Below, piece after piece: positions 11,801 through 29,606 of a stretch of 47,464 nucleotides of DNA. Numbering within the stretch: the stretch's first letter is position 1; each line of letters opens with the position of its first letter. A program made the translations under genes and the position numbers. The stretch covers positions 1 through 47,464 of IMG/VR virus record IMGVR_UViG_3300024261_000051. One strand, 5' to 3'. Under the pieces are notes generated by a model. That model was not told where the DNA came from and searched no databases. It saw nothing but the letters and a program-made list of their open reading frames with translations. The DNA is from a virus.

Positions 11801-14800
11801 CCAGCTATGACCGTCCATATATTGATCGAGCTTGCCAGACTGGAAGTCACGATTAAACTCAGTAAAGGTTCTATGCTTGTGCTCAAGAACCCCCTGCTTA
11901 ATCGCCGCCCGTAAAGCGTTAACTCCATCAGCAACCTCACTAAAGCGGAGCACCTCATCAAGCCCCATTCCGAAGGCTGGGTTAGGGATTAGCTCGCTCT
12001 CACCATTCGCGTGATCAGCAATGTCATACAGATTAATCAGCTTCTCTGTATTGATATAGTCTCCACTCAGAAACTCCGTATAAAGAGCTGAGTAGACTCC
12101 GTTATCGGTTTTGATGTCACTGAAGATACTGCTGTTCTTAACCCCTGATCCTGCGTTCTCACCATAGAAGAAACGGTTATCCAGGAAGATCTCTCCATCA
12201 ATGGAACGGGTAGGTACCGTGGTCCAGATAATGTTCTTGGGGCCGCTGCGGCGTAGGAAGAACAGCATATCACCATCCTTCTTCTGCATGACGAACGACA
12301 TAGCCTTGTCTGTATCGTCAGCGGATTCAGACATCTTCTCTCCACGCTCTTCGCGCCCAAGAGTAAAGCGGTCAAGCGCTTCCTGTCTGTTGCTTCTGGC
12401 GTGCCGAGTAACTCCACCACCCTGACGGCGATACCTTTTAATAATCTCGATCAAACTTCTGGGGGCGGCCATCAGCTTCTGAGGATCTTGGATCAACTCC
12501 AGCACCGCTGCCTTCAGCTTGTTGATGCTCTTATACTGTTCGCTCCATATAAGCGCATCTATCTCATCTGTAATCTGTAGGTCTGCAACAACCTGAGTCT
12601 TAATAATGTTATTGATCCGAGCCTTTGATGCCTTGTCCGGCGTAAAGGTTTTAGTCTTCCTGCTATTAAGAGTCACATCCACAAGATGATCATTCGACAG
12701 ATACTGGGCCAGATCCTCAGATGCCTCTACTCTGGACTCAAAGGAGTCAAGGGTAATTCCATCCAGGGTGACGTTCCACAAACCGTCCTGCCCTTTATTG
12801 ATACCCACAACAGAGTCACCGAACAGTGCCCGACGATCACCTGCTTTACCCAGCGCCTCATAAACAGCCCGGACCTCTTCGGAGAGTGAATCAATACTGA
12901 ATCCTTGGGAAGCCTCTTCAACTACCCCTTCAGTAGACTCCACCGCTACCTCAGCGCCCCCCTGCTCAGCCTGATACAGAGACTCATCCCAAACATCAGC
13001 ATCATTCAGCGCACCAAAGAATGCATTGCGTGCGGCCTCATGCAGCTGAGCAGGGATCGGAACCTCTTGAGCTGCCAGCAGCGCCTGGAACCGGTCCTCC
13101 AGTTCAGCATCATTGAGTGCCATAAATGCCGGGTGTGTTGCTGCCTGCTCCCCCATCATGGAGTAGCTGATAATCACGTCCTCCATCAGGGCTTCAAGCT
13201 GCTCCTCCTCGCTGGACTCCGAGATCTCAACTGACTCCTGAGCTGGTTGCTCTATTTCGACTGGCTCTGCTTCTGAGATCTCATCTGCTGGAGCTGCTTG
13301 ACTCTCAGCTTGGCTTCCTCTGGAGTGTTGTACCTGCCCAGCGTTCGTCCCTTCTTGGACACTACTGCCCACTGGTTGTCCTGCGTTTTGACTATCATTT
13401 ATATCTCCTATGGTTTCTGCAACAGCAACAGACGTAGCACCTCTTGTCAGTACGCTACGGGCTGCGGTATCGATATCACTATGCTGATCAATCTCTGAAT
13501 AGCCGCCCTCTTCATTCATTCCAAAGACAGAGAACCCGTTCCCGTTGTCTTCAATATAAAACTCAGGTGCGAACATATCAGTGTTTACCCACTCCACCTG
13601 AAGATCACCGTACAGCATATCTCCGGCAGGACGTAGCGCATGACTGAACGCCACGCTGTCACCCATAATGTCGTCATCCAAATCATCCAGGAAATCAACT
13701 TCATTCTGCTGGAACGCTATATTCTCTGGGTACTGCTTCACCAAGTTCTCGAACAGATTAGCCTCAACATGATCAGCTTCCTGCTGTGCGGCTGCAACAC
13801 CAAAGGCGTCAGCCATAGATGTGTTGGTAGCCTCGCCGAAGATGCGGCCATCAAAAGTATCTTCCTGCTCTACTTCTACAGCAACCGGTGTATTCGCTAC
13901 AGCTGCCGCTTCAATATTCTGACTATGCTGAGCCTCAACAGCATCAGGTAGCGTGCCACCCTGCGCCCTTACAGTCTGGAACAGATCGAGCAAACTTTCG
14001 GCCTGAGTGGCTTTAACTGAAGCCTGATCAATCTCCTCCTGAGTCTGCGCGTTATTCATCACATCTACCTGTGCAGATATGAAGGATTGAAGCATTGCGA
14101 TTCTCTGAGATAACGGATCAACCGCCACCTCCTCAGTAGGCTGTACCTGCTCTGATGGTGTAACACCATTCCGCATATAGGTGGGCGTATCCAAGTTAGG
14201 CTGTTGCTTACTTTCTACAGGAACAGAATCTGGAGCCTGAGCTGGAGTCAATATCCCGTTCTGCTGACGCGGAGCCTGAATAGCAACCGCTGCCTGCTCA
14301 ATAGCAACCGCTGCCTGCTCAATAGCAACCGCTGCCTGCTCGTATGTATCATGGACTGTAACCAGCTTGCCTGAAGGGTTCTGAACAAAGAACTTACCCT
14401 TATGCTCAATGATATTGAAGTCAGACTTCTCAACTCCCTCCACGGCATCCTCAATGCTGAGGCGCTGCGCCAACCCGTCTCGCTCCTGACCCAGAAGCGT
14501 TACCTCATTATCCAGTGCCGCAGCCTGTGTCGCAGTCTTCTCTCTCTGATCACGAGCGACATGCGACTCTTTGAGCGCCTTCTCTTCAAGTGCAGAGAAA
14601 GACTTCTTAGTGCCAGATAATGCCGACAGCTCAGCAAGCTCCGACTGCAAAGCAATCATGTCGTTGATGGGCTGGTTAATCTGGTCCTTCTCCAGCGGTG
14701 ACATTGCCGAAGCGAGAACATCCTTTGCGCCCTCTTGCGCCTTAGCAATTCGTGTCTTCAGCAGACTCTGGGCAGAGCCGATATTGTCAGTACCAATATC

Positions 14801-16237
14801 ATGATCTTCCAGCGCACTCGATACAGAGGTGATCCGCTCGCGCAGAGCAGTAGCACTCGCCTCCCTCTTGCTCTGAATCTGAAGAAGCTCATCATTCTCA
14901 GATCTTCTCTTATCGATATCAGCACTACGGACATCCAGATCATCTAATGCCTTCTTTATCCCCGGACGGATATGTGAGCGATCACCCGTATCAATATCCG
15001 CTTCAGGGTCTGCCCCAAATACAGAATTTACCGCACTGCCTGGAACCGACAAAGCACCACCCGCAACACTACCACTCACTACGCCAGTCATTGCCGCAGC
15101 ATTGGTGCCCTGCTCTTCAGGAAGGCCCAAAGCAATATTGGTAGCACGCTTACCCTCGTGCCCCTGAATACCCTCTTCCGTGGCCTCAAGACCTGTAGCT
15201 GCTGTCGTATTGCCAAGGAACGACTTCCCAAGTTTACCGGTGACCGCTTTGCCCAATAGAGGCATAGCCACGCCACTGGTGACAAAGGCAGTAGCAAACA
15301 TCTCATCGAACGCCTGCCCCTCAAGACGCTTAATCACATTGCTGCGTGCAATCTTTATCCGGGTCGGGGTGTCGAGAGAATCATCCGTATTGTTGTGGTA
15401 CTCATTAGAGAATAGTCTGGCAACCTTTGGATTGGAATCGGCAGACTTATTGTTCCACTGGCTATCAGTGTACCCGCGCAGTATATCTCCAACTTCCTGC
15501 GCCTGAGAACCAGCCTCCATCATACCAACAACGGTACCAAAACCAGCTGCACTACCCCCCGCATCCGCAGCCGTATCGAATGCACCCTTCTTGCCGAGCT
15601 TGTACTTACCGAGCTTGTACTTATTCAGTACCGCATCCGCCGCATCTTTGATCGGCATTCCACCTTTAGCAAGATCCTTTGCCTCACTGCTAAAGCGCTT
15701 AACAAGGAAACTACCACCCTTCTTTATCACCTTCTTTACTGCATACCCAGCCGGACCGCCACCCACTAACCCAGGGACAGTTGATCCTATGGAGTGGATT
15801 GCTGTTGCGTAAAAATTAGACAGGCTTGCGTCCCGGTTAACCTCCCAATCATCTTCGCCAACCTGATTGATAAGAGGTACCGACAACGCATCGGCTGTCG
15901 TTTTATTCATGTCACTCCAGACACTCTCTTTTGCAGCACCAGCGAACTTGTTAATTGTTTCGCCGACCCCAAAATCAGGGAGAAAGTCAAACTGATCAAG
16001 CCCCTTGCCCAGCCCCTCAATAGCACCAAGGGCACCATGCATAATGAGCTTAGACTCTTGGATATCATTAGGATCTTCAGCAGACGCATCCATGCCCCGC
16101 CCCATGCCAAACGACATCTCGTCACTCTTTACAATGTCTGGCGCGGACTCTCTTGCTGCGCGTAGTTGCACCAACTCATCTTTACGCGCCTGCCGTCTGG
16201 CAAGATAATCTGAACGCTGCTGATCTATATATGACAT
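5804..16237 (-). CDS. giant polyvalent virion protein (two zincin-like domains, ART-like domain, LPD-type C-terminus)
   Basis: A 3477-residue uninterrupted frame, last gene of the late operon, placed like the internal/ejection proteins of short-tailed phages. Visible regions: Gly/Ala-rich hydrophobic N-terminus (to about 420); coiled coil (about 430-630) with three copies of AVAIEQA; long acidic Gln/Glu-rich linker (about 650-1130). Two related zincin-like metallopeptidase domains follow, with HETYGHH at 1831-1837 and HEAAGH at 2083-2088, each preceded by GKVYL and followed by a similar helical part. An ADP-ribosyltransferase-like domain spans about 2231-2516 (AWHGSPHDLEGF, GAQAYGWGMYFA, DYNYVIFNDADVEIE). 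The C-terminal helical region (about 3080-3390: MFKQYSLNMSWMMGR) resembles the LPD38-type domain of large polyvalent proteins. Such proteins are thought to enter the cell with phage DNA and act on host targets. N4 virion RNA polymerase has similar length, but its motifs are absent. Confidence 0.85.
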   Translation of the reverse strand: MSYIDQQRSDYLARRQARKDELVQLRAARESAPDIVKSDEMSFGMGRGMDASAEDPNDIQESKLIMHGALGAIEGLGKGLDQFDFLPDFGVGETINKFAGAAKESVWSDMNKTTADALSVPLINQVGEDDWEVNRDASLSNFYATAIHSIGSTVPGLVGGGPAGYAVKKVIKKGGSFLVKRFSSEAKDLAKGGMPIKDAADAVLNKYKLGKYKLGKKGAFDTAADAGGSAAGFGTVVGMMEAGSQAQEVGDILRGYTDSQWNNKSADSNPKVARLFSNEYHNNTDDSLDTPTRIKIARSNVIKRLEGQAFDEMFATAFVTSGVAMPLLGKAVTGKLGKSFLGNTTAATGLEATEEGIQGHEGKRATNIALGLPEEQGTNAAAMTGVVSGSVAGGALSVPGSAVNSVFGADPEADIDTGDRSHIRPGIKKALDDLDVRSADIDKRRSENDELLQIQSKREASATALRERITSVSSALEDHDIGTDNIGSAQSLLKTRIAKAQEGAKDVLASAMSPLEKDQINQPINDMIALQSELAELSALSGTKKSFSALEEKALKESHVARDQREKTATQAAALDNEVTLLGQERDGLAQRLSIEDAVEGVEKSDFNIIEHKGKFFVQNPSGKLVTVHDTYEQAAVAIEQAAVAIEQAAVAIQAPRQQNGILTPAQAPDSVPVESKQQPNLDTPTYMRNGVTPSEQVQPTEEVAVDPLSQRIAMLQSFISAQVDVMNNAQTQEEIDQASVKATQAESLLDLFQTVRAQGGTLPDAVEAQHSQNIEAAAVANTPVAVEVEQEDTFDGRIFGEATNTSMADAFGVAAAQQEADHVEANLFENLVKQYPENIAFQQNEVDFLDDLDDDIMGDSVAFSHALRPAGDMLYGDLQVEWVNTDMFAPEFYIEDNGNGFSVFGMNEEGGYSEIDQHSDIDTAARSVLTRGATSVAVAETIGDINDSQNAGQPVGSSVQEGTNAGQVQHSRGSQAESQAAPADEISEAEPVEIEQPAQESVEISESSEEEQLEALMEDVIISYSMMGEQAATHPAFMALNDAELEDRFQALLAAQEVPIPAQLHEAARNAFFGALNDADVWDESLYQAEQGGAEVAVESTEGVVEEASQGFSIDSLSEEVRAVYEALGKAGDRRALFGDSVVGINKGQDGLWNVTLDGITLDSFESRVEASEDLAQYLSNDHLVDVTLNSRKTKTFTPDKASKARINNIIKTQVVADLQITDEIDALIWSEQYKSINKLKAAVLELIQDPQKLMAAPRSLIEIIKRYRRQGGGVTRHARSNRQEALDRFTLGREERGEKMSESADDTDKAMSFVMQKKDGDMLFFLRRSGPKNIIWTTVPTRSIDGEIFLDNRFFYGENAGSGVKNSSIFSDIKTDNGVYSALYTEFLSGDYINTEKLINLYDIADHANGESELIPNPAFGMGLDEVLRFSEVADGVNALRAAIKQGVLEHKHRTFTEFNRDFQSGKLDQYMDGHSWSEVEAGLKRIGDRGTEYFWDHVGRKLADEKSQVGVLGDQGKKESMRVTFGDDRDAALKKLGAVIYRYGNQKVIPELHENKVGRVREILSTDDVIITGKHKVRSGDLIFTVTESREMESGGRIYFDSRMDDKLDDLGATLYSSGGKFLIRGVTEENIEALSGMMNGVRLSVRGNGEAIELSSADKRKITTAISKGSFENEAELPTEEEIAAHKTTLVKRQPSAVVAAIDPHQLRLEELKGAQRDYLVTHRVNDAFKGDTGDVAFSVSKSQSKTPISAAVLDAVISNLPVKWSGGNVELIPLSSAEELPGYIKNHYQKRGQDIADIKGVIHNGKVYLNRQQITSRREAEQVIFHETYGHHGIRMLLNTTDINQGLNKLFVMLGGYKGINELAGKYGITREMSEYMKLYSGETRERRQGLIADEFLAHVAGYETGKIKQKALEILGAIRNWLRNHGFKSLARSMSVTDVAYLLRGARRAVNGSGTFPGNKMKINEEMINLDMQAHKAATSPRKGIAMYSLRSDSGKSGGMSVDAVESKTEDIIYRRLGKKTEYEVVATEADLPSDIRRQAEEDGATGSVEGVFHEGKVYLVADKMSGDLHIEETLLHEAAGHKFGRLLFDNNIKQSYNKLFLMLGSKGVRDVAKRYDIDLDSYIETGKGRLDRGETTVEDYRAFIVDELIAQLSGKKAYETLPVRFKNAVKALWGQFRDWLRIKGYKKSAELTDSDLQYLLKRVRQAAIEGGSVALGDRPAFMTAWHGSPHDLEGFTTGKIGTGVGAQAYGWGMYFAGNKEVGEFYRNQLSEYDPGVFKFGGKEFTTGDYRELIPTIVDSGYSEAAAATAVQAIQEHGGNLEEARDYYSLWVQGGVKRTVGQILDEMELSKSKGKLYQVDLKPSEDEYLLWDKPLSEQGEKVRKALEGLEGHGAWTPEAQAWATKEFPSLFEGGFDASVLSDGQKSMVGQAYQDETGRSPFAGKPREMTGEGLYRDIAVSNRSDRAASLALLAAGIRGIKYLDGSSRGKGDGDYNYVIFNDADVEIEAKFSRKPESTTPGVENITRADLFKKAEREESDDISFSIAMPDGKPMTQGAVNQMMEQVMGRPASKWKVGKFLRGKGINARATSLGMLTRRMVAELAKETHLDSIWDYHKRSQDKEAVRVKRSDKDDRLYKRWVAKAKKEGEASTRFADIIHTSTLYQIDPAKAFELLDDSLKPNSERRIEYQRIRAEYDALPGWHDLYKELRQNFTNKMVDLQDSLTARLTDTVEDEKTLKGLLGELNNQFKVIKRKGPYFPLARFGDHIVIVKEKGDQERIVAAFESDEEVRVAVEDFIKQGYSAGDIEIKKGEQNFFKHATYSGVGSKMIDLLRDSLPDTSADEQHLKQDLLDQMNTVMLSSMPDSSYHKNFMHRKGVKGYSDDAIRAFALTAGRINNNIANVQYDYKLTRDIAEAKKQAKSLPAGDKRYAYDLIGEIDKRHENMQNASFSPISGVAGAAGFTWSIGPSIASALVNISQTPLIAYPLMGAKYGFGRAGKEVMRAMKDWGPNGKYDPELFRDIKHGLKGDELKAIQMLEDMGAISTTNVIELQGAGHEDHLAMAKGGSLSRKAHDAMKFAGAPFHYAEVFNRQVTGLAAYRLARSDKKNPLSHDEAIDAARTMIYDSHFDYSSSNRARAMQGNWLRVITMFKQYSLNMSWMMGRLLRNSFTSNVDAETRSQARKSLMGIMGGYGMFVGTLGMPISGMVTGVVEMLANGMGEEDEEFDAEAWYRNKLTDATGKDWAEVIAHGPARAIFPSIDISSRMSIDLLGMWMPRVDEHAEGRDMARNRIAGLMGPLAANLENVITGAAKVAEGKTWRGIEMMIPKAFKDISKSIRFTQEDITTWKGERVLEEDITFMELFMQAVGFSPRRHGEAYAYRNFLTLQKDAIQEAKTRLVDRWIRAESVEERGNIMQSIESFNLRHPQKRIRITGDTIKRSMRSRKRSAQQTHAGTYLPKSYDYLREEGRFANF
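14280..14342 (-). repeat. three tandem 21-bp repeats within the giant gene
   Basis: Three 21-base units (ATAGCAACCGCTGCCTGCTC plus one base on the + strand), nearly identical, encode EQAAVAI repeated in the coiled-coil/linker part at about residues 632-653. Near identity at DNA level points to recent slippage. Confidence 0.85.
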
Positions 16238-18421: not shown

Positions 18422-18924
18422 TACGATGATCTCCCTGTAGCTTGAGACAGACTTGCCATACCACCAGTCATAATTGCATTACGCCTGTCGTCTGCGTGTT
18501 GTGCTGCATCATTCATGGCGCTCACAGTCGCTGCCATTTTCTCTATACCAAACGACCTGTCAGATGCTTTTGCCTGATCAGCGGTCATACCGATCCCCAT
18601 ACGAGAGAGGCTCAACTCCCCCGAAGCCTTCTGTGCGTCCATTGAGGACTGGGTATAATCCTTCGCCATCTCAATCTCTTCAGAGCCGTCATTATGAGCC
18701 AGATCAATTAGCTCCTGCTCAAAGGGTTGAAACCGCTTCTTATAGTCATTCCACTGGTCACGACTTATAGCGGCATATCGGTTGGCCGCCTCCCAGTCGT
18801 ATGTTGTTTTGCCACTACCGCCCTTGCATGCAGCGACCTCACCACCGTACTCATGAGACTCTTCACTGACCTGAACAAGATCACCTCCCTCCCACTGATA
18901 CTCAATCTGTGTATAGACTTTCAT
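18421..18924 (-). CDS. late virion-associated protein, paralog A
   Basis: A 167-residue protein whose first 40 residues are clearly related to the gene just upstream: MKVYTQIEYQWEGGDL, EESHEYGGEVA, CKGGSGK. The rest is helical and Met/Ala-rich (FGIEKMAATVSAMNDAAQ). The shared N-terminus (MK-hydrophobic-YT-x-IE-aromatic-x-WE, EES, CKGG) seems to be a small beta-hairpin domain, perhaps a docking element on the internal core. Coupled by one-base overlaps on both sides. Function unknown; the context is that of internal virion proteins. Confidence 0.65.
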   Translation of the reverse strand: MKVYTQIEYQWEGGDLVQVSEESHEYGGEVAACKGGSGKTTYDWEAANRYAAISRDQWNDYKKRFQPFEQELIDLAHNDGSEEIEMAKDYTQSSMDAQKASGELSLSRMGIGMTADQAKASDRSFGIEKMAATVSAMNDAAQHADDRRNAIMTGGMASLSQATGRSS

Positions 18925-19586
18925 TATTCGTCATCCTCCATATAGCCAGCGACCATACCAAGTCCAGCAGAAACAGCCTTGCGTGTAGAGTTCTTATCAT
19001 TCCAGGCAGAGAAGGCATCATCCTTAGACTTCTGCAACGCTTGCCCGGTAATGTCTGCCATACTCTTAATAGCACCAGAGGATTGGCCTTGCCCCATACC
19101 AACAATCCCTTCCATCTTGCTTACAAAGCGATCCTTCATTCCCATGCCAGCAGCTGACCCAGCCCTGCCAACACTTCTCCCGGCACCAGATGACCGGTTA
19201 ACCCCTGACATAACATGCATTCCTGATCCGGCACGCACACCAGAGGAGAGCATCTCAGTATCCTTCTGCTTGGACAGCGCAGTAAGCTCACTATTCGCTG
19301 CAGTCATGGCATTACCAGCACCGCGATCAAACTCACTACGCGAACCAGATGCCTTGGTGTTTTCCATGTACTCGTTTTCCAGTGGGGCGAAGTGCTGCTG
19401 ATACCAGTCCCACTTCTCTTTTGCGATCCTGGAAAGCTCCTTAGCATGAGGTGACTCCTCAACATGATTGTTGCCAGCGCCACCTTTACACAGCGCAGTA
19501 TCACCATCATGCTCATACGACTCTTCATGCGACACCGCCAATTGGCCGCGTTCCCACTCGAACTCAATCTTGGTATATATTTTCAT
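18924..19586 (-). CDS. late virion-associated protein, paralog B
   Basis: A 220-residue protein, related to the following gene through MKIYTKIEFEWERGQL, EESYEHDGDTA and CKGGAGN; after this the two diverge. The middle is a charged helix (IAKEKWDWYQQHFAPLENEY) that also has a counterpart in the paralog (DQWNDYKKRFQPFEQE). The second half is Gly/Ser/Met-rich and the C-terminus is helical. The pair likely arose by tandem duplication. It overlaps the acyltransferase-like gene by four bases (ATGA). Confidence 0.65.
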   Translation of the reverse strand: MKIYTKIEFEWERGQLAVSHEESYEHDGDTALCKGGAGNNHVEESPHAKELSRIAKEKWDWYQQHFAPLENEYMENTKASGSRSEFDRGAGNAMTAANSELTALSKQKDTEMLSSGVRAGSGMHVMSGVNRSSGAGRSVGRAGSAAGMGMKDRFVSKMEGIVGMGQGQSSGAIKSMADITGQALQKSKDDAFSAWNDKNSTRKAVSAGLGMVAGYMEDDE

Positions 19587-20002
19587 AACGGTTTCCCAAC
19601 AATAATGTACTGCTTCGAGTACCCTAAAGGAGTTAGTATCTTTTCAAATGCATCACGACACATAGAGTCCATGGCGTCACAACCAATACTCTTGGCCCAC
19701 GCCTCTATTTCTGATAGGTGGTGAATCCGCTGGTTCAGCCCACGACCACCCAGCCCCACGACTCGGCATACACGCTTAATGGGGTAGGAAAGGATCTCAA
19801 CGACAACAGCGGCTACGATAGCTCCTTCATCGTCATCAACAATAATCCACATCATCATGCCGCCAGATTGGAGCATGCTGTAGACATGACGAACTTCAAG
19901 CTCACCCTGAGAATGGCTTAGTGCATCGCGCACGTATCCTGACACCTTATCCCAAACGGTATCAATCTCTTCTGGCGGGACTATCAGGGCTGTAGTATTC
20001 AT
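19583..20002 (-). CDS. GNAT-like protein (T7 gp13-type internal virion protein A position)
   Basis: A 139-residue protein. A VYSMLQSGGMMMWIIVDDDEGAIVAAVVVEI segment (helix then central strand), then RVCRVVGLGG, and a C-terminal helix-strand ending GYSKQYIIVGKPL follow the fold order of GNAT acyltransferases. Proteins of this size and type lie next to the internal virion genes in many short-tailed phages, where they are often annotated internal virion protein A or acyl-CoA acyltransferase. Whether it is catalytic is unclear: the RVCRVVGLGG strand-loop only loosely fits the acyl-CoA-binding Q/RxxGxG/A motif. Start ATG at 20002; a perfect inverted repeat lies just upstream. Confidence 0.65.
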   Translation of the reverse strand: MNTTALIVPPEEIDTVWDKVSGYVRDALSHSQGELEVRHVYSMLQSGGMMMWIIVDDDEGAIVAAVVVEILSYPIKRVCRVVGLGGRGLNQRIHHLSEIEAWAKSIGCDAMDSMCRDAFEKILTPLGYSKQYIIVGKPL

Positions 20003-20077: not shown

Positions 20078-20302
20078 TTACGGCTCAGGAAGCGCCTCAA
20101 TTTGAGAGATAACACCCACCATTAAAGCAGGATCATGAATGTCTGGGAAAACCCGATCAAATGAGATTTTAAGTTCTTTGATTTTTTCATACACCCCAGG
20201 AACTAACTCATCCTGCAGTGCGACCCGCACAGTAGACGTGCGCTCCTGCGTCTGCTCACGGTACTCTAGTACATCTATATCCATGCTTTCTGTAATAACC
20301 AT
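20078..20302 (-). CDS. hypothetical protein, 74 aa
   Basis: A small acidic protein, MVITESMDIDVLEYREQTQE at the start, then a helix (VYEKIKELKISFDRVF) and an end in QIEALPEP. No motif recognised. It shares one base with the preceding gene and is followed by a 75-base gap. Likely part of the tail or chaperone set by context only. Confidence 0.55.
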   Translation of the reverse strand: MVITESMDIDVLEYREQTQERTSTVRVALQDELVPGVYEKIKELKISFDRVFPDIHDPALMVGVISQIEALPEP

Positions 20303-20769
20303 TAGACTCTCAATACATTAATATCATAATTAAATGAAAAACCATAGTGTCCATTACTAAGGTGTCCATGACCCCCTCCGTAGTGGATTACTTTAAACTC
20401 CATCTGCCCAGAGATAACAGTACATATCAATGCTCCTACGTTCAGATGAGGATTGCTAGGCGCATTAACACTAGCGACATCCAGCACCAGCGGAACATGA
20501 AGCGGTATATCTAACCCTATAAGAGATGTAACTGTATTATATGCGCTCCACCTAGAGTCGGCGCTAACTATGTTGATATAGACTGCAGCATGATCACCAT
20601 CTTGAAGTGATAGAGGCACACTGGCAACATTTGCAGCCAGACCTCCAGAGAACGTAATCAACCCTTGAACTCTCTGCGCCCTATAAATCATTCCTGTATT
20701 GGTTCCAAACAATACATCTCCAGCAGGAGAGGAGACCTCAATCACCCCCGATGCTATATTAAGACTCAT
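20302..20769 (-). CDS. hypothetical virion/tail protein, 155 aa
   Basis: A beta-rich protein with SSPAGDVLFGTNTG near the start and a Gly/His-rich C-terminus (HYGGGHGHLSNGHYGF). No signal peptide or membrane segment. It overlaps its upstream neighbour by four bases. By composition and position it is probably a structural protein of the tail tip or a receptor-binding accessory; no family recognised. Confidence 0.6.
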   Translation of the reverse strand: MSLNIASGVIEVSSPAGDVLFGTNTGMIYRAQRVQGLITFSGGLAANVASVPLSLQDGDHAAVYINIVSADSRWSAYNTVTSLIGLDIPLHVPLVLDVASVNAPSNPHLNVGALICTVISGQMEFKVIHYGGGHGHLSNGHYGFSFNYDINVLRV

Positions 20770-21653
20770 ACTGACGCCTCGATATTAAGCGCATCACTGT
20801 ATGTCGAAACCAAGAAGAAGGCACCCCATGCGGAAGTTAGCGCCGACAGGTCTGGCAGTCGAACTTCAACTGTATCAGACTCGTCGTGCATCCCGTCTAT
20901 CAACGTATATACACCTGGCGCTATACCAACTGACTTACAATAACATGCCTTTTCCACCTCGTCCTCACCCCACATTATCTGAATCGACATTACAAATACA
21001 GCGTTCACATATATGTCAGCGAACTTGCCTGCGTAATTAGAGTCCAACGGCACATTGTCTGCACCTGCTGCATCAACAGGTGCATAGAGCGTCAGCTTGT
21101 TACCTACCGGAGGGTTGATCCAAATGCTTGACGCAGGAGGGTTATGCGTAAACTTCCCAATAAAGTACCCTAGAGGAAGATCATTCCCCGCAGGCACCCC
21201 GTCTGTTCCAGCACCTATATTAACACCATAGGCGTACCCTATAGAGAAGTTAGGAGAGACGCTCTGCTTTAAATAGTTATACCTACTATCAAAAGTAACA
21301 TCACCAGCGGCATTAAGCGTTACAAAGTATCCAGGATACACCCCGATGCGTTGATTGACCTCTTCAAGCGGAGCTGCTGGGAGAATCGGATCAACAACCA
21401 TAATCTCAAGCCCGTTCATATTCACGGCCGGAGCATCTCCGGTAAAAACATTTACAATACAGATAACCTGTATCATCCCTGTCGAGTCATTATATGCAGG
21501 GTAATACAGGTGCTGGTAGCCAGCCCCCTCTACTGCGTACCCTCCCGAATAAACTACGCCATTATATTCAATAAGCATCATTATCGGTTTATGCGGCCAC
21601 GCCATAACGTCAAACTTATGAACAGCTGATACTGGATAACGTACGGTAGGCAT
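20766..21653 (-). CDS. hypothetical virion/tail protein, 295 aa
   Basis: A beta-rich, aromatic and proline-containing protein (PTVRYPVSAVHKFDVMAWPH... GVVYSGGYAVEGAGYQHLYY). Its last 25 residues (SAWGAFFLVSTYSDALNIEA) abut the start of the next gene. No catalytic motif. The composition and the place between the NlpC/P60 gene and the internal proteins suggest a tail-tip or adhesin component. Confidence 0.6.
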   Translation of the reverse strand: MPTVRYPVSAVHKFDVMAWPHKPIMMLIEYNGVVYSGGYAVEGAGYQHLYYPAYNDSTGMIQVICIVNVFTGDAPAVNMNGLEIMVVDPILPAAPLEEVNQRIGVYPGYFVTLNAAGDVTFDSRYNYLKQSVSPNFSIGYAYGVNIGAGTDGVPAGNDLPLGYFIGKFTHNPPASSIWINPPVGNKLTLYAPVDAAGADNVPLDSNYAGKFADIYVNAVFVMSIQIMWGEDEVEKACYCKSVGIAPGVYTLIDGMHDESDTVEVRLPDLSALTSAWGAFFLVSTYSDALNIEASV

Positions 21654-21880
21654 TACTTCTTTCCATCGCTATAAGTTACTGAGCCGCGAGAGAGTGCAGG
21701 AACTGTAATATTAGGGGCAGTCTGGATAGCAGCTATGTGCATATACTCACGATGTGAGTGAAACTTCAATTGATTATCATACGTTGTGACTGATGGGTTC
21801 CCATCTGGAATCGCCGAGTCGCCCACCCACACAACCTCGCTCCCCCCGACCGCTCCTGCATAGAATTTACTGCCCGACAT
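21653..21880 (-). CDS. hypothetical protein, 75 aa
   Basis: ATG at 21880 (MSGSKFYAGAVGGSEVVWVG) is chosen over an upstream in-frame start at 21985, which would put 105 bases inside the NlpC/P60 gene and code for an unlikely Trp/Met-rich stretch. It overlaps that gene by 14 bases. Short beta-rich sequence ending ALSRGSVTYSDGKK; probably virion-associated. No family recognised. Confidence 0.55.
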   Translation of the reverse strand: MSGSKFYAGAVGGSEVVWVGDSAIPDGNPSVTTYDNQLKFHSHREYMHIAAIQTAPNITVPALSRGSVTYSDGKK

Positions 21881-22403
21881 ATCGCATCCCGCCAAATATT
21901 TCCAAACCATCCAAAGCATCCAGCCCAGATAATCGGCCGGGGAGATGATGCAGCACCATACCATCTCCAACATAGACCCCAACATGATTAACCGTCCTGC
22001 TCCCGTACTTCATAAACACAAGATCATTAATCTGCATGTCTAGCACATCCACAAAACCATTTCCCTTGAAGCACTCAACAGACCCTTCTGCCAAACACCG
22101 GTCTCGCATACCTACATCACTCAAATAAATTGACAGCAAATTTGACCCCACCTTGCTATCAATCCATCCCAACACAAGAGTTATGCAATCATTCTGCCCT
22201 TTACGGTATTGATGACCAATTGGAATATCGTCTGCCGGAATAATGCTTAACGATCCTGCGCTCTTATTAATATATAAGGTACCCTTTTTGGGTGAATTCG
22301 AGATGAGAAGCTCACCACGGGCGCCAGACATCAAAAGCCTTCCATGCCTAATCTCACACCACTCACCAACCCTATCTTTCATCTCGTTATAGTAATCAAT
22401 CAT
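21867..22403 (-). CDS. NlpC/P60-like cysteine hydrolase (tail-tip type)
   Basis: A 178-residue protein. The start at 22403 has AGGTGG about six bases upstream; longer in-frame starts would lie inside the preceding gene. After an N-terminal beta part (residues 1-60) comes KGQNDCITLVLGW with the presumed catalytic Cys, and later VNHVGVYVGDGMVLHHLPGR with the catalytic His. This order is that of NlpC/P60 endopeptidases, and of lambda gpK and related tail-tip proteins in particular. Such enzymes cleave peptidoglycan stem peptides, here presumably to let the tail pass the cell wall. It sits in the tail-tip part of the operon, ten bases after the PP-loop gene. Confidence 0.75.
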   Translation of the reverse strand: MIDYYNEMKDRVGEWCEIRHGRLLMSGARGELLISNSPKKGTLYINKSAGSLSIIPADDIPIGHQYRKGQNDCITLVLGWIDSKVGSNLLSIYLSDVGMRDRCLAEGSVECFKGNGFVDVLDMQINDLVFMKYGSRTVNHVGVYVGDGMVLHHLPGRLSGLDALDGLEIFGGMRYVGQ

Positions 22404-22413
22404 TGAGTGCCAC

Positions 22414-23001
22414 CTATGTATTCTGAAGCTCACTGAAGATAAACTTATACAGGTTAGACTCTCCATACAAGCTGCACGCAACGACAACTGAATGCCCTGC
22501 GTCCATAAATAAAGGATTGTCTGTAAAGGATTGCAGGTATATGCCACGACTTCTCTTCGATCCTTCCTTTGAGTGCCCATTGACCGACAGTAAAATCATA
22601 CCCATCTGCATAATGCGGTCAGCCACCCACAAGGATGTTCTTGACATTCTTGGGGTCAAAAGATCTACGCCCATTGGCACCAGCAGTTCTGACAAAACAG
22701 ACATCTGCTCCGTAACCGGATTCTCCCCTATCATCACTGCATCACCAGACGAGAGATTAGAAAGTAAGTAGTCACTTAACATACCTACGATCTCTCCACT
22801 CTCTGAGGCATGTATAACATCAAGAGGCATACTCAGAGTGTCACTAATTGCAGCCACACAACTCAAAGGTAAAGTGTCCGAAAGAAAAGAAGAATAATCG
22901 AAGAATACTAGCCTAATCTCATCAAATTCCATTCCCATTGCAAGATCCAGAGCAATAATACTGTCCTTCCCGCCAGAAAATAACAACGCACACTTACGCA
23001 T
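22414..23001 (-). CDS. PP-loop ATP pyrophosphatase, DPH6-like
   Basis: A 195-residue protein. Start ATG at 23001 follows GAGGAGAG; a longer frame start at 23064 lies inside the previous gene. Near the N-terminus is CALLFSGGKDSIIAL, the PP-loop (SGGKDS) of N-type ATP pyrophosphatases. The second half (GDAVMIGENPVTEQMSVLSE, PRMSRTSLWVADRIMQMGM, LLSVNG) follows the pattern of the DPH6/MJ0570 group, in which a GxI-S-Q motif is followed by a PLW-like segment. DPH6 amidates diphthine in eukaryotes; bacterial members are mostly uncharacterised. The family adenylates a carboxyl or carbonyl group and adds a nitrogen or sulfur. What it would modify among tail genes is unknown. Confidence 0.72.
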   Translation of the reverse strand: MRKCALLFSGGKDSIIALDLAMGMEFDEIRLVFFDYSSFLSDTLPLSCVAAISDTLSMPLDVIHASESGEIVGMLSDYLLSNLSSGDAVMIGENPVTEQMSVLSELLVPMGVDLLTPRMSRTSLWVADRIMQMGMILLSVNGHSKEGSKRSRGIYLQSFTDNPLFMDAGHSVVVACSLYGESNLYKFIFSELQNT

Positions 23002-23488
23002 TATTTCTCTCCTCAAGCCATACGAATATAGGAGATATAGCATCAAAGCTAACTGTGGCGACAAACTCCCCGGAGGGTATACATTTAACCTGCCCCATCC
23101 TGGTAATCATTTCCGAGTCCTCTGCTTCGCACGTTACATTGTTGATCGATTTCGCTAAGCCGAGGACAGGGATATGGATATCTCTAATCTTCTCTTTTTT
23201 GAATTGCACCTCTGTACTATCAGGAGGGAGATCAATAATAACGAACACAGGTCTCACCACAGAATACCGGTTTAAAATATTTTCTCTAATCATCTGTCGC
23301 TCGAACGCCCCCCCACTGCAGACCCCTTTGTTGGACTGAATGGTGGTCGGCGATGACGCCTTCTCGATAAACTTTTCTGCATCCTCTACGGAATAAGGAA
23401 CGATGAAGTCAACACACCTCATCATTACGTTCTTGCGCATTTTGTAGGTAGTGTCTACCAAGTTTAAAATAGGACGAATATCAATCAT
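22994..23488 (-). CDS. hypothetical protein next to PP-loop ATPase, 164 aa
   Basis: An alpha/beta protein with no motif I recognise (FIVPYSVEDAEKFIEK; GVCSGGAFERQMIRENI; VRPVFVIIDLPPDSTEV; CIPSGEFVATVSFDA). It overlaps the PP-loop gene by eight bases and the large fibre gene upstream by four, so the two small genes are translated together. It could be the partner or substrate of the PP-loop enzyme, or a tail protein. The several cysteines are not in zinc-finger spacing. Confidence 0.6.
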   Translation of the reverse strand: MIDIRPILNLVDTTYKMRKNVMMRCVDFIVPYSVEDAEKFIEKASSPTTIQSNKGVCSGGAFERQMIRENILNRYSVVRPVFVIIDLPPDSTEVQFKKEKIRDIHIPVLGLAKSINNVTCEAEDSEMITRMGQVKCIPSGEFVATVSFDAISPIFVWLEERNNA

Positions 23489-26400
23489 GCTGTAATACTT
23501 ATAAATCCATTAGTAAGATCAATTACGAAAGTTCCAGCTCCATTCTGGATCTTTCCAGATGTCATAGTACCAATATCGCTTGATAGTGCAGATAGCCCTC
23601 CGGTTACCACCAACTTGTCAGCAGTAAGACTCTCAATCATGGCGCTGACTATCGAGGCATCCTGAATCATCGCGCTATTGATGTACGTCACACCGCTCTG
23701 AATCAAGAATGGAACACCAAACTTCCCACCAATATGAGCACTCAGAGAATAGATCTTTTCAAACGATCGATCAAAGTCACCCTGAACCTGTAGCTCGATA
23801 GTGGATATTGTCGTTACATCTGTGCTTGAAGGGGAGACAAGATGAGAGATCGTATAGTGATCATAGTTTCCTGGGTCTCGTGTGCATGAGCCGTAGGGGA
23901 TATCGAATACCGTTGTTTTGGCAGTACCGTATGAGTCAGTGCCCGTTAGATGTATCGACAACTGAAAGGGGTATGTTTGTGGCACGAAACCTTTAAAGAT
24001 ATACCGTGACTCTGGACCACAAAGCAAGTCAGCTTCAAAAGTATAGGCTGCACTCTTCACAAGATGGGGGGAGAAATGCTTAATACCAACAGTCTCCCAC
24101 TCCCATTGTTCTGCAGTGTTCTGCTGAGTAATCAAGGCGGAAAACCAGCAGCCGGGATCGACCAGCATCAACTTGTCAGCAACTATCGCAAACTCACTAC
24201 CGCTCCCTAAAGCATCACCGCTATGGACAGCCAACCCAAATCCTGCTGCCTGCCCATTGGCATTCATCTTTACGCTGTACTGCCCCTCAAGCCCATCGAT
24301 ACTGTCAGCATTTGCAGTCATGGATTGCTCAACCGTTACACCCGCACCTCCGGCATTATCAAGTCTTGCCGTTAGACTTGTGAAGTCAGCTGCTGCCGCT
24401 GTTGCGTGCCCCTCGGCAGTTGTCGCTGATGCTGAGGCGCTATTCTTGTAGGTTAGGGCATTAGACTCTGACGTACCTGCGCTGGTTGCAGATGTTGAGG
24501 CGGCACCAGCAGAAGTCAGGGCGTTATTCTCTGCTGTCTCCGCGCTATCTGCATGAGTTGCAGCCGCTGACGTGCTTGCAGCAACACCCGGTATCCATTC
24601 CCTTCCGGGGTCTACTATACATGACGCCTCAATGGTGTACGAAGACTCCAGGTTTTGAGTTGCTATATTTCGGCAATACCCTGCAGTTGCCAGAAGCTCA
24701 GCCTTTGTCTCGGATGCCGCTGCTGCGGTTGCGCTATTCGACGCCTCAGTAGCCTTTGTAGATGCTGTGGATGCGCTGCTTGCAGCGGCAGCCGCAACCT
24801 CCCCTGCCGAATCCTTAGATGATGCTGCATTTGATTCGGATGCAGATGCGTTAGATGCGGACCCAGATGCGCTCGTGGCTGATGAGGCTGCTTGAGTGGC
24901 TGATGTGGATGCTGCCCCTTGAGCAGTTTCAGCTTCAGCTTTGGCTGTTGCTGCAGCACTTGCATGTTGCCCGGCAAGCGTCTCAGATGACGAGGCGCTA
25001 CTGGCGCTAACTGCTGAGGCTGCTGCGCTATCCTCTGCGCTTGGAGTCCAGGTATTGCTGGTATTATCGGCGAGACAGTTCACTTCAGTCAGCAAAGTTG
25101 GTGACACACTGCCGTCACTGAACAGCGTACAGTAACCGCCTCTCGCCGCCAACTGGGCAACAATCTTATGCGTCTCAGCTGCAGAGGCAGATGTTCCGGC
25201 ATCACCGGCTGACGTAGCAGCAGCTGATGCAGAGCTAGAAGCTGCCGTTGCACTACCCCCAGCGTGCGTTTCTGAGGTTGCTGCATTTGATTCGGATGCA
25301 GATGCGTTAGATGCGGACCCAGATGCGCTCGTGGCTGATGAGGCTGCTTGAGTGGCTGATGCGGATGCTGCCCCTTGAGCAGTTTCAGCTTCAGTTTTGG
25401 CTGTTGCTGCAGCACTTGCATGTTGCCCGGCAAGCGTCTCAGATGACGAGGCGCTACTGGCGCTAACTGCTGAGGCTGCTGCGCTATCCTCTGCGCTTGG
25501 AGTCCAGGTATTGCTGGTATTATCGGCGAGACAGTTCACTTCAGTCAGCAAAGTTGGTGACACACTGCCGTCACTGAACAGCGTACAGTAACCGCCTCTC
25601 GCCGCCAACTGGGCAACAATCTTATGCGTCTCAGCTGCAGAGGCAGATGTTCCGGCATCACCGGCTGACGTAGCAGCAGCTGATGCAGAGTTAGAGGCTG
25701 CCGTTGCACTACCCCCAGCGTTCGTTTCTGAGGTTGCCGCATTTGATTCGGATGTAGATGCGATGGATTCAGATACCCCCGCACTGGTCGCTGATGAGGC
25801 TGCTTGAGTGGCTGACGCTCCAGCGTTCGAGGCTTGAGTGGTAGCAGTAGTAGCAGACGTATCAGCGGCGCTGGCTGAGCTTCCTGCGGCCGTCTCAGAC
25901 GCGGACGCATTAGATGCGCTGGTTGCCGCTGCCGTTGCACTTGTCCCAGCATTGGTAGCAGCCGTCTCCGCTGAAACCTTATGCGCCTCCGCTGACGTTG
26001 CTGAGGTACCGGCATTAGTGGCAGAGGTTGCAGCATTAGACTCGGACGTAGATGCGGCGACAGCACTGTCTCCAGCATTGGTTTTTGAAGCTGCAGCTGC
26101 TGTTTCAGATGAGCTTGCATTGGATGCAGAACCAGATGCGCTCGTTGCTGAACTTGCTGCGTTCGTTTCTGACACACCTGCATTGGCTGCGGCTGTCTCT
26201 GAAGCAGTCTTTGATGTCTCTGCGGCAGCAGCATAGGATGCACTACCCGTCTCATAAGCTGCAGACTGAGAAGCTGAAGTCGATGCCGCACTTGCTGACG
26301 TTGCGGCATTACCTGCACTAACCTCAGACCCATCAGCCCATACATTGGTTGGATCGTCAGCCAGGCACGACACAGAATCAGTGAACGCAACAAGAGAATC

Positions 26401-27534
26401 ACCGCCGGAACTCTTACAAAACCCCACCCCAGCAGCAGCTTCAGACGCTATGCTTGCCTGTACTGAACGAGACTCTGCAAGGATTGCGTCCGACTCACTG
26501 GACGCAGCAGTCTGAGCAGAAGTTGCAGCTCCAACGGCAGAGGTCGCAGCAGTAGCAGCTTGCGCAGCGGCAGCGGCAGCAGAAGTTGATGAACTATCAG
26601 CAGATGCGGCAGAGGCAGCAGCCTGATCAGATGCAGCAGTTGCAGACCCGGAGGCAGCAGATGCCGAGTTGGCAGAGTTATCAGCGCTCGCCATTGCGCC
26701 TACCTTCCAAATATTGGTACCGTTATCCAGTAAACAGGCTACTTGATCAGTAAATGCAGGGAGGCGTGTACCTCCTGAGTTTGTACAGTACCCTTGACCA
26801 GCAGCAGCTTCAGCAGCAATCTGAGAGATAAGAGCGTCTGCAGACTCAAGCGCAGCAGTGGCAGCACTTGCAGCCGCTTGCGAGGCAGATACGGCAGCCG
26901 CAGTAGTGTCACCATACGTCTCATCCAGCCCATTGATTGCTGTGTCAATATTGTCCAGCTCGGTTATCAGAGCCTGGGCCAACTGCGAACGATCAAGCGC
27001 CCCATTTAAAACAGCAAGCACATGATCTGGACCCATGCTGGTGTGGGCCTGAATACCATCAACGGCATTAAATGCACCAATCAACCCCTCACTACTAACC
27101 GCCTTAACCCAATAGAAGTAGTCAGAATCCCAGACGATATTGCTGTCAACATACATAGTATGCGTGGAGCTACCGATCAAAACAGCATTCGCCGTATTGT
27201 TGTCAGCACTTCTGAATACCTGCACCACAGAGTGATTGCCATACACAGGGAATTCCCATGTAATCATGACGGCACTCAGGCTCACATGCGTCTCCAGACC
27301 ATTTACTACAGGCGGCTTTACCCCGGTTGAATTGGTAACAGGTGCCCCGGTTGGATTCCCCCCTCCACCAGGGACATACTTTGATCCGCCGGCAACTGAG
27401 CGACCACTATTAACTCCCTGCACAGAAGTAGTAGATGACCCACCATAGTTGCCAGAGCCAAGCGACTCCCTCAACTGATTCAGGAACGTGGTCAATCCAT
27501 GATCTAGCCCCGGTGGAACATTAGGCAAACTCAT
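23485..27534 (-). CDS. Ala/Ser-rich tail fibre with FN3 domain, Cys-pair modules and lambda J-like C-terminus
   Basis: A 1349-residue fibre. The N-terminus is Gly/Ser-rich, then an FN3-like domain (about 75-165: PPVVNGLETHVSLSAVMITW ... YFYWVKAVSSEGLIGAF). From about 210 to 1060 runs a low-complexity Ala/Ser/Thr coiled coil like the side-tail-fibre repeats of lambda Stf. It is interrupted five times by a roughly 30-residue module with the pattern GYC...FTD..xCLxD...N.W (two cysteines, end Trp). The C-terminal third (QYSVKMNANGQAAGFGLAVH, SEFAIVADKLMLVDPG) matches the DUF1983-type end of lambda tail protein J. It probably binds host receptor. Overlaps the upstream gene by four bases. Confidence 0.82.
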   Translation of the reverse strand: MSLPNVPPGLDHGLTTFLNQLRESLGSGNYGGSSTTSVQGVNSGRSVAGGSKYVPGGGGNPTGAPVTNSTGVKPPVVNGLETHVSLSAVMITWEFPVYGNHSVVQVFRSADNNTANAVLIGSSTHTMYVDSNIVWDSDYFYWVKAVSSEGLIGAFNAVDGIQAHTSMGPDHVLAVLNGALDRSQLAQALITELDNIDTAINGLDETYGDTTAAAVSASQAAASAATAALESADALISQIAAEAAAGQGYCTNSGGTRLPAFTDQVACLLDNGTNIWKVGAMASADNSANSASAASGSATAASDQAAASAASADSSSTSAAAAAAQAATAATSAVGAATSAQTAASSESDAILAESRSVQASIASEAAAGVGFCKSSGGDSLVAFTDSVSCLADDPTNVWADGSEVSAGNAATSASAASTSASQSAAYETGSASYAAAAETSKTASETAAANAGVSETNAASSATSASGSASNASSSETAAAASKTNAGDSAVAASTSESNAATSATNAGTSATSAEAHKVSAETAATNAGTSATAAATSASNASASETAAGSSASAADTSATTATTQASNAGASATQAASSATSAGVSESIASTSESNAATSETNAGGSATAASNSASAAATSAGDAGTSASAAETHKIVAQLAARGGYCTLFSDGSVSPTLLTEVNCLADNTSNTWTPSAEDSAAASAVSASSASSSETLAGQHASAAATAKTEAETAQGAASASATQAASSATSASGSASNASASESNAATSETHAGGSATAASSSASAAATSAGDAGTSASAAETHKIVAQLAARGGYCTLFSDGSVSPTLLTEVNCLADNTSNTWTPSAEDSAAASAVSASSASSSETLAGQHASAAATAKAEAETAQGAASTSATQAASSATSASGSASNASASESNAASSKDSAGEVAAAAASSASTASTKATEASNSATAAAASETKAELLATAGYCRNIATQNLESSYTIEASCIVDPGREWIPGVAASTSAAATHADSAETAENNALTSAGAASTSATSAGTSESNALTYKNSASASATTAEGHATAAAADFTSLTARLDNAGGAGVTVEQSMTANADSIDGLEGQYSVKMNANGQAAGFGLAVHSGDALGSGSEFAIVADKLMLVDPGCWFSALITQQNTAEQWEWETVGIKHFSPHLVKSAAYTFEADLLCGPESRYIFKGFVPQTYPFQLSIHLTGTDSYGTAKTTVFDIPYGSCTRDPGNYDHYTISHLVSPSSTDVTTISTIELQVQGDFDRSFEKIYSLSAHIGGKFGVPFLIQSGVTYINSAMIQDASIVSAMIESLTADKLVVTGGLSALSSDIGTMTSGKIQNGAGTFVIDLTNGFISITA
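24824..25735 (-). repeat. tandem 456-bp duplication in the fibre gene
   Basis: The segments 24824-25279 and 25280-25735 are nearly identical at DNA level, with a partial third start after 25735. Each encodes 152 residues: one stretch of Ala/Ser coiled coil plus one Cys-pair module (GYCTLFSDGSVSPTLLTEVN and onward). In-frame length and few differences show a recent tandem duplication that lengthens the fibre. Confidence 0.9.
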
Positions 27535-29606
27535 GACTGCAGCTCCGTAATCGTATTGGCGACTTCAACACCATAGATCTCTTCAAAGTCACTCACTTCA
27601 ATTTCCCACTCTCTTGCAAGGAATCCGTCTGGTAGACGATGGCTATCATCACACGTCACGGTGTCATTAAATCTTTCGACACCATCTGCCGTAACCTTCA
27701 CCGTGACAGATCCTGTTCCACTCACCTGGAAGGCACCAAAATTGACAGGCTTAGGAAGCATAAACTTCTTGGACTTCCACTGCCCTCCGGCAAGCGCCCC
27801 CTGATTCCAGGCGCGAAGCTCATTACCCACCCCATACAGGAGACGATCTTCCAGCTTATCCCTGAACAAAGCAGTCGCAATGACAGATCTGAACGTGAGT
27901 CCATCCTCCCCTATGACAAAGCTGCCTGCGTCATAACAGCAGACATAATTGCCCTCATCATAGATACCAATCATGGTTGACGGATTCAAGGCATTCCACT
28001 GCGCCCGAGTCAGAAGATCTTTGGTAAGATTCTTTGTGCCGTTGGGCGAGATCGAAATCAGACCATCTGGCGAGGCGTATGCAACTGATCCACCCTTGGA
28101 AACGACAGACCTCTTCGATATGCACGCCTGATCTTCGTCGATAGGCTCCATCACCATATTAGATGGGTGAGTACCTCTAATCAGATAGGGCTGCCCAGTG
28201 GTAAGAACAACAATCCCATTGGTCATAACGCCCAATCCAACAATCTCAAAATCAACCGTATGGCGATACTTTACAGGCCATGCGTAGGGGAGATATGGCT
28301 CACAGAGGCAAACTTCCTTACCAAAGAATCCAGCCATCATCCCATTGGCCATACTCACCAAGCCCACCATATCCTCATTAGGAGGATCGTACTCAAGACT
28401 GACCAGAGTGCCGCCGGGGAGATTGATATCCAGGACATCATCCTGCAGATTGCTGACACCTAGAGACAAGAAATCAACCAGCACGAAGTCAGCTGCGCTG
28501 GAGCCATCAGCATAACGGTATACCCGCACCCCCTTGATGTCATAGTTTCCAGTCGGAGTTGCTTCAGGGATATCAACGCTGATTACCTGCCCCTCATACC
28601 ATTCAACAATTGTACTGGGTGGAGAAGGCGGCCCTTCCTCATCCTGATTTGTGATGTAGGTGTACACATAGGTTCGGCTAATCGGAAGACTGTTGCTGTC
28701 GATACCGTCAGAGGAAGTAATATCATAAGAGGGGTTATAGTAATTGGTTCCTGCCTTAACGATAACGATGTCATCCACAACACCCGCCGTTGCAACAGCC
28801 TGCAGGTTTGCACCTGATCCTGGGATCGCTTCAACATGAACCACTACGCCGGATGGGTAAGCAGATCCCCCCTCTGTCAGGGTGACCCCGGTAAGAACGC
28901 CAAGACTCCATACCATCTCAAAGACAGCGCCATGTCCATAGCCCAGTGAGTCCGTAATCACCAGCTTCGCTCTATCCTCTTTAAAGGCAGAGAGGTCAGG
29001 AAGTGTACCAATACTTGTAATAACCCCTCCCTCAGTAGAGACAGGGATATTGGCAAGAGCCGGAACATTATCGGTAACGGCAACCGCCAGCACACCGTCA
29101 TATCCGGTGCCTCCAGTGGTAATGCTCGCCGCTGAGATACCGAGATTCTCATCCAGCGTCAAGGTTCCCGCGAATCCAGTGGCACCTACTGCCCCATTCC
29201 CCACGCTCACCAAAGGAGCCTGTGAAGGAGCAGGCACGCCAAGCAGATAGGAGTTAGATGGGTACGGCAAAGATGCAGTTGCTATAGAAGAGAACGTCAT
29301 CCTTGGCTTACCATCACCGGTAATGTATGTCTTCTCTATCGTGTCGTTGGGGACCGCGCCCTTAACAACGTCCACATCCTTGTCCCACTCAAACCAGTAT
29401 TGCGCAACACCGGATGCATTGAATTTATGGACAGTCTTAACCGGGTTCGCCGTAAGGGTAGCTACAGCTGAAGCGCTCACCTTGCAGGGGACAAGATTAC
29501 CGTTACTGATGTCTACATCTTTGGCGATCTGCGCCTGTGCATTTTTCAATAGACGTGGAGCAACTGCAGGAGCTTCACCACCAAAGGTATCGATACTAAT
29601 CTTCAT
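27531..29606 (-). CDS. tail protein, P22 gp10-like (tail stabilisation type)
   Basis: A 691-residue beta-rich protein beginning MKISIDTFGGEAPAVAPRLL, then AQIAKDVDISNGNLVPCK. This opening and the repeated strand-turn segments (YLLGVPAPSQAPLV; LPISRTYVYTYITNQDEEGPPSPPS; KGGSVAYASPDGLISISPNG) are typical of large tail proteins of short-tailed phages that are annotated as tail stabilisation or P22 gp10-like beta-propellers. Length is somewhat above that of P22 gp10 (about 470). Its start overlaps the lipoprotein gene upstream (ATGA); its end overlaps the fibre gene, which it probably anchors. Confidence 0.65.
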   Translation of the reverse strand: MKISIDTFGGEAPAVAPRLLKNAQAQIAKDVDISNGNLVPCKVSASAVATLTANPVKTVHKFNASGVAQYWFEWDKDVDVVKGAVPNDTIEKTYITGDGKPRMTFSSIATASLPYPSNSYLLGVPAPSQAPLVSVGNGAVGATGFAGTLTLDENLGISAASITTGGTGYDGVLAVAVTDNVPALANIPVSTEGGVITSIGTLPDLSAFKEDRAKLVITDSLGYGHGAVFEMVWSLGVLTGVTLTEGGSAYPSGVVVHVEAIPGSGANLQAVATAGVVDDIVIVKAGTNYYNPSYDITSSDGIDSNSLPISRTYVYTYITNQDEEGPPSPPSTIVEWYEGQVISVDIPEATPTGNYDIKGVRVYRYADGSSAADFVLVDFLSLGVSNLQDDVLDINLPGGTLVSLEYDPPNEDMVGLVSMANGMMAGFFGKEVCLCEPYLPYAWPVKYRHTVDFEIVGLGVMTNGIVVLTTGQPYLIRGTHPSNMVMEPIDEDQACISKRSVVSKGGSVAYASPDGLISISPNGTKNLTKDLLTRAQWNALNPSTMIGIYDEGNYVCCYDAGSFVIGEDGLTFRSVIATALFRDKLEDRLLYGVGNELRAWNQGALAGGQWKSKKFMLPKPVNFGAFQVSGTGSVTVKVTADGVERFNDTVTCDDSHRLPDGFLAREWEIEVSDFEEIYGVEVANTITELQS

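Follow-up and report, generated by a model that had tools for sequence, protein, structure and literature searches.

A predicted PP-loop enzyme in the tail operon of a Bcep22-like phage, and a PP-loop family beside podophage ejection proteins

A PP-loop gene and an orphan partner gene follow a tail fibre gene

We analysed the virus contig IMGVR_UViG_3300024261_000051 over its whole length of 47,464 nt (the window). The following features are located between the giant polyvalent protein gene and the internal virion protein gene.

5804..16237, minus strand: polyvalent protein, 3477 aa, with an LPD39 domain (PF18858, E = 2.5e-17), presumed ejected
18924..19586, minus strand: short virion protein of the JC1 gp64 group, placed by phmmer matches to L007 and L004, which match phrog_611/8003
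19583-20002: 139-aa protein whose gene overlaps that of the short virion protein, with homologues in L041:13716-14153 and phrog_25629
20078..23488, minus strand: low-GC insert that L041, the nearest relative, lacks; it holds p164, the PP-loop gene, the NlpC gene and four small ORFs
21867..22403, minus strand: NlpC/P60 peptidase, a lambda gpK-like domain of tail tips (PF00877, E = 5e-7; tail phrog_30, E = 3e-16)
22414..23001, minus strand: PP-loop ATP pyrophosphatase, 195 aa, with SGGKDS at residues 9-14 and without CC, CxxC or EGGE/ENGE
22994..23488, minus strand: p164, an orphan 164-aa protein, translationally coupled upstream partner of the PP-loop gene
23485..27534, minus strand: tail fibre, 1349 aa, with Ala/Ser-rich repeats and homologues in 92 survey ORFs
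27531..29606, minus strand: internal virion protein (phrog_511, E = 2.5e-142), the anchor of the survey below

A sequence-only reading of the window had reported a PP-loop ATP pyrophosphatase gene with SGGKDS, QMSVL and TSLW motifs, coupled to a gene for a 164-residue protein. Both ORFs and all three motifs (residues 9-14, 99-103 and 121-124) are found at 22414-23488, and the enzyme identity is borne out by SGGKDS together with a match to Pfam family PF01902 over its cut-off. ATG 23001 is a better start for the PP-loop ORF than TTG 23064 and has the Shine-Dalgarno sequence GAGGAG close upstream; with this start the ORF overlaps that of p164 by 8 nt, in agreement with the reported coupling, and the fibre stop overlaps the p164 start by 4 nt. 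A codon-usage score trained on ten further window genes was positive for the annotated frame alone in both genes, and 0 of 2,000 shuffles reached it in either case. Both genes look genuinely coding, and the PP-loop frame is intact and full-length with an intact motif.

By gene content the phage is classed as a temperate Bcep22-like podovirus, because of its phrog_511 protein, portal, capsid, integrase, polyvalent protein and nearest annotated relatives (Aeromonas phage phiARM81mr, Vibrio phage douglas 12A4 and Bcep22-like Burkholderia phages). Its internal virion protein shares only ~30-40% identity with that of any relative found. The PP-loop gene had been placed in a tail tip, between a J-like fibre and an NlpC/P60 hydrolase. 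The NlpC/P60 assignment holds (PF00877, phrog_30), and a homologue search relates this protein to siphophage tail-tip peptidases; "tail tip" and "J-like" are loose terms here because the module belongs to a podovirus. The fibre (23485-27534) holds long near-identical internal repeats, with two copies of ...SVSPTLLTEVNCLADNTSNTWTPSAEDS.... In the 3477-aa giant protein LPD39 alone is recognised, beside a weak match to an RNA polymerase Rpb1 domain without DxDGD.

The gene pair lies in a variable slot

GC content per gene is 0.43-0.485 in the insert, compared to 0.49-0.53 around it. In L041, the nearest relative by gene content, the fibre gene is followed directly by those of a small protein and the short virion protein, where the window has 3.4 kb extra. 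Two of the four small insert ORFs (20766-21653 and 20302-20769) had no homologues. In 113 of 118 relatives, by a mechanical ORF count, the fibre and the short virion protein are separated by at least one ORF of 90 residues or longer, and a Pfam search of 110 such ORFs revealed tail chaperones (10), GNATs, Asp/Asn beta-hydroxylases (2), cupins (2), SDR and GDSL lipase. GNATs, Asp/Asn beta-hydroxylases and cupins are types that often modify proteins. The PP-loop gene lies in a variable, enzyme-carrying slot. The window ORF at 19583-20002 occupies the position of the relatives' GNAT gene, and its assignment as a GNAT found no support with a seed that excluded L041. At two other loci reverse transcriptase genes lie just upstream of the internal virion protein gene (L007, 6657-8308; L003, 7166-8452), and in L007 a gene annotated as Avd, from a diversity-generating retroelement, is present too.

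Searches for p164 in Pfam, PHROGs, NCBIfam and sequence collections returned no family or homologue, and 398 genomes from the phylum of one prophage host gave no match. Three candidate resemblances were set aside. A Foldseek list with many 2OG oxygenases came from a low-confidence model and was treated as meaningless, and p164 showed no significant similarity to the Asp/Asn hydroxylases of the slot. A likeness to ADP-ribosyltransferases was seen by eye only, with nothing in Pfam at E<10. A similarity to the 182-aa protein encoded before the PP-loop gene of locus L125 (6 of 2,000 shuffles) was not found by phmmer and is not claimed.

Family placement of the PP-loop protein

The N-terminal ~130 residues of the PP-loop protein match Pfam family PF01902 (Diphthami_syn_2) over profile positions 2-132, at 23.8 bits (cut-off 23.2, E = 3.7e-5). 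Pfam matches to QueC (PF06508, E = 0.005) and to PAPS_reduct (PF01507, weak) fell below cut-off, as did the QueC model TIGR00364 (15.6 bits, cut-off 150.3). The nearest full-length NCBIfam model is that of the PAB0415 family (NF052346), which aligns residues 7-170 with positions 3-162 of 205; because the match scores 17.9 bits where the cut-off is 250, we do not count the protein as a member. A literature search found no paper on this family.

Dph6 proteins have a strictly conserved C-terminal EGGE/DxE signature and their DUF71-B12 sister group has ENGE[FY]H (PMC3541065). An EGGExE or ENGEFH motif was looked for in the window protein and is absent, whereas ENGEFH or EDGEFH is present in 3 of 3 bacterial PF01902 proteins, taken from genomes with related prophages. 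We therefore do not file the protein under Dph6/DUF71-B12: of its earlier assignment to the diphthine-amide ligase group the N-terminal domain stands, and the C-terminal EGGE/DxE or ENGEF/YH signature is missing. The PF01902 match, slightly above cut-off, would fit a genuine amide ligase or amidohydrolase of the Dph6 or DUF71-B12 kind; with the conserved C-terminal part unmatched and its motifs lacking, and with bacteria having, to our knowledge, no diphthamide, we regard this identity as very improbable.

The protein has cysteines at positions 4, 48 and 176 only. It contains neither the ECG[IL]H catalytic cysteine of APS/PAPS reductases nor the CC and CxxC cysteines of the phrog_424-like phage group. 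No close relatives of the PP-loop protein or p164 were found in phages, plasmids, viral contigs or genome contigs; one genome match, L175, was spurious and sits in a purL frame. For the HUP alpha/beta fold expected of the superfamily, an AlphaFold model of the PP-loop protein made with no alignment reached pLDDT 34, and that of p164 reached 43, neither of them a usable confidence. By profile comparison, the window protein is best described as a small and divergent PP-loop protein whose nearest full-length match is the PAB0415 family, itself uncharacterised.

A CC/CxxC PP-loop family in related podophages

An odd conserved virion-associated enzyme had been one of the earlier suggestions. Such genes are not isolated oddities: in related phages PP-loop enzymes are encoded within this module or next to it, and the authors of the JC1 paper already recorded their PP-loop and GNAT genes as morons, suggesting sulfate reduction for the former (PMC9144972). 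We collected 89 proteins of a CC...CxxC PP-loop family (L176-L255 and L005, L042, L056, L071, L082, L151, L152 and L155), 18 of them fused to an N-terminal class I methyltransferase. The survey anchored on the internal virion protein has a CC/CxxC PP-loop gene at 8 of 119 loci, with a class I methyltransferase fusion in several of these. A PP-loop alignment search gave at least 80 loci (best-scoring; survey sets are the best 80 per search and biased to top scores, and L176 and L247 repeat the contigs of L082 and L042). An internal virion protein is found at 40 of them, the absence of one elsewhere possibly reflecting short contigs, and a GNAT at 57.

The CC/CxxC genes are flanked on one side by the short virion protein gene and on the other by genes for ejection or giant proteins. 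Many of the remaining loci belong to a second podophage group, with a phrog_6121 virion protein, a phrog_4470 GNAT and proteins resembling an injection transglycosylase and a DNA ejection protein. The PP-loop tree (quick search, no bootstrap; a second tree was restricted to loci with clear markers) shows at least 6 changes of phage group, at least 5 of them forced by well-supported branches. The family thus appears to have been exchanged between the two podophage groups at least 5 times, and its genes keep landing beside ejection proteins.

BcepMigl has its "PAPS reductase" and GNAT genes in one operon, and in the unbiased set a GNAT accompanies 5 of the 8 PP-loop loci, compared to 46 of 119 loci with a GNAT, which is not convincing. 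It is conceivable that a GNAT-fold enzyme acts on the N-terminal glycine of the short virion protein; an N-terminal MG is as frequent where these enzymes are missing, and the motif is also seen in phages that have no GNAT. At L237 a CxxCxxCC ORF (PF03692, 4355-4915) lies immediately before the PP-loop gene and overlaps it. The virion protein encoded 3′ of the GNAT very often starts MG[KGS] or has a Gly-rich stretch after its leader (L201, L237, L222, L152, L003). A third type of PP-loop protein (SGGVDS, no Pfam family) is encoded at a Motiliproteus coralliicola prophage edge (L125, 13595-15910), where the frames of a fibre, the 182-aa protein, the PP-loop protein and a beta-eliminating (PLP) lyase overlap.

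Relatives annotated as PAPS reductase match PF01507. CC and CxxC are present in all 89 phage relatives (89/89), and ECGxH or CC..RK in none (0/89). CC with CxxC is the cysteine pattern of APS-reductase iron-sulfur clusters, while ECGxH and CC..RK are catalytic and substrate motifs of sulfonucleotide reductases. The common "PAPS reductase" label probably misnames this phage family, and the sulfate reduction suggested for JC1 is unlikely because no member has ECGxH or CC..RK. In principle the window enzyme could supply sulfur assimilation as a sulfonucleotide (PAPS/APS) reductase, the annotation given to its Lessievirus relatives. Despite the PF01507 matches in the relatives and the weak one in the window protein, we consider this the least probable identity of all, since the relatives lack the catalytic motifs and the window protein lacks ECGxH, CC..RK, CC and CxxC alike.

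Mass spectrometry of JC1 virions detected gp64, gp67, gp68 and gp69; the GNAT gp63 and the PP-loop gp65 are missing from the list, on which gp64, encoded just upstream of gp65, does appear (PMC9144972). By analogy, this result disfavours the earlier idea of a virion-associated enzyme.

Proposed function and alternatives

PP-loop enzymes are established to adenylate a carboxyl or carbonyl group, which a nucleophile then attacks. By the chemistry of its superfamily, the window enzyme would use SGGKDS to bind ATP and would adenylate the oxygen of a carboxylate or carbonyl group, releasing PPi; a nucleophile, either an amine or a sulfur donor, would then displace AMP. Its gene would be expressed late, from the tail operon; its substrate would most likely be a protein from the tail or the ejection machinery; and p164 may be a dedicated specificity partner or the substrate itself. 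We tentatively propose, at somewhat below even chances, a small divergent non-structural late enzyme that acts on a tail or ejection protein with p164 as partner. The operon overlaps, the recurrence of PP-loop genes beside ejection proteins, the enzyme-rich slot and a defence-system precedent suggest this reading: QueC-family PP-loop enzymes modify a partner protein from the same operon, as demonstrated for Cap9 and proposed for QatC (PMC13279940). As counterpoints, ordinary tail chaperones and unknown ORFs occur in this slot as well, and the JC1 authors see their gene as a metabolic moron. The argument from the CC/CxxC group is one of analogy because the two are related by superfamily only. 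It may not carry over, because homology to the window protein is confined to the PP-loop stretch (42 columns) and the genes lie on opposite sides of the short virion protein. The earlier statement that this family has no established tail role is still correct.

A moron serving the lysogen or infected cell, with an enzyme acting on a host metabolite, nucleotide or tRNA from a permissive late-operon site, is a serious possibility. The low-GC insert absent from L041, the JC1 authors' own term and the third-type PP-loop gene of L125, just after the fibre at a prophage edge and adjoining a PLP lyase, all point that way. Morons usually have their own promoter, whereas the window genes overlap the fibre gene and each other, and a moron would leave unexplained why such genes recur next to ejection proteins in two groups of phages. 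Because of position and neighbouring genes, we prefer a substrate among the tail or ejection proteins to a host-directed role. It is improbable that the enzyme is packaged in the virion and enters the cell together with the DNA, where it would act against host defence or change host molecules. Such a role would fit the neighbouring presumed ejected polyvalent protein and the many host-directed enzymes that polyvalent proteins carry (PMC5512222), but neither gp65 nor gp63 was among the proteins detected in JC1 virions, although non-detection is not proof. We give still less credence to neutral or decaying cargo with no present function: the gene is known from a single genome with no homologue for a selection test, but its full-length frame, intact motif, ribosome-binding site and coding-like codon use argue against decay.

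A broader and more speculative proposal, which we hold to be unlikely, is an unrecognised cassette that chemically modifies podophage ejection or tail proteins before packaging. It would be made up of PP-loop enzymes from several unrelated subfamilies, in many cases accompanied by a GNAT and in some fused to a methyltransferase or preceded by a CxxCxxCC domain. The window gene would then be an independent replacement with its own partner, p164.

The presence of PP-loop enzymes beside DNA-injection proteins in many short-tailed phages suggests that an enzyme step tied to this machinery has gone unrecognised. Should these enzymes indeed act on ejection proteins, DNA entry by short-tailed phages would include a hidden step of post-translational chemistry. 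Even if they do not, the survey indicates that a label taken to mean sulfate assimilation probably does not apply to this family, whose genes track ejection proteins across phage groups.

Comparison with known systems

The Lessievirus "PAPS reductase" (BcepMigl gp18, JC1 gp65; phrog_424) is likewise a PP-loop enzyme encoded in the same virion operon, between internal virion and giant proteins; it belongs to the CC and CxxC subfamily and is sited after the short virion protein, whereas the window gene is sited after the fibre. Dph6/DUF71 proteins (PF01902, COG2102) share the PP-loop N-terminal domain, co-linear over ~130 residues, but the window protein lacks their EGGExE/ENGEFH, is ~30 residues shorter than the three bacterial members and is 17-22% identical to them. 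The PAB0415 family is co-linear over the full length and of similar size, with a score far under its cut-off (17.9 vs 250 bits). Cap9 and QatC, like the window enzyme, are PP-loop enzymes paired with the protein of an adjacent gene and offer a precedent for protein modification; they are defence systems, however, whereas the window enzyme is weakly QueC-like and p164 begins MI, without an N-terminal glycine.
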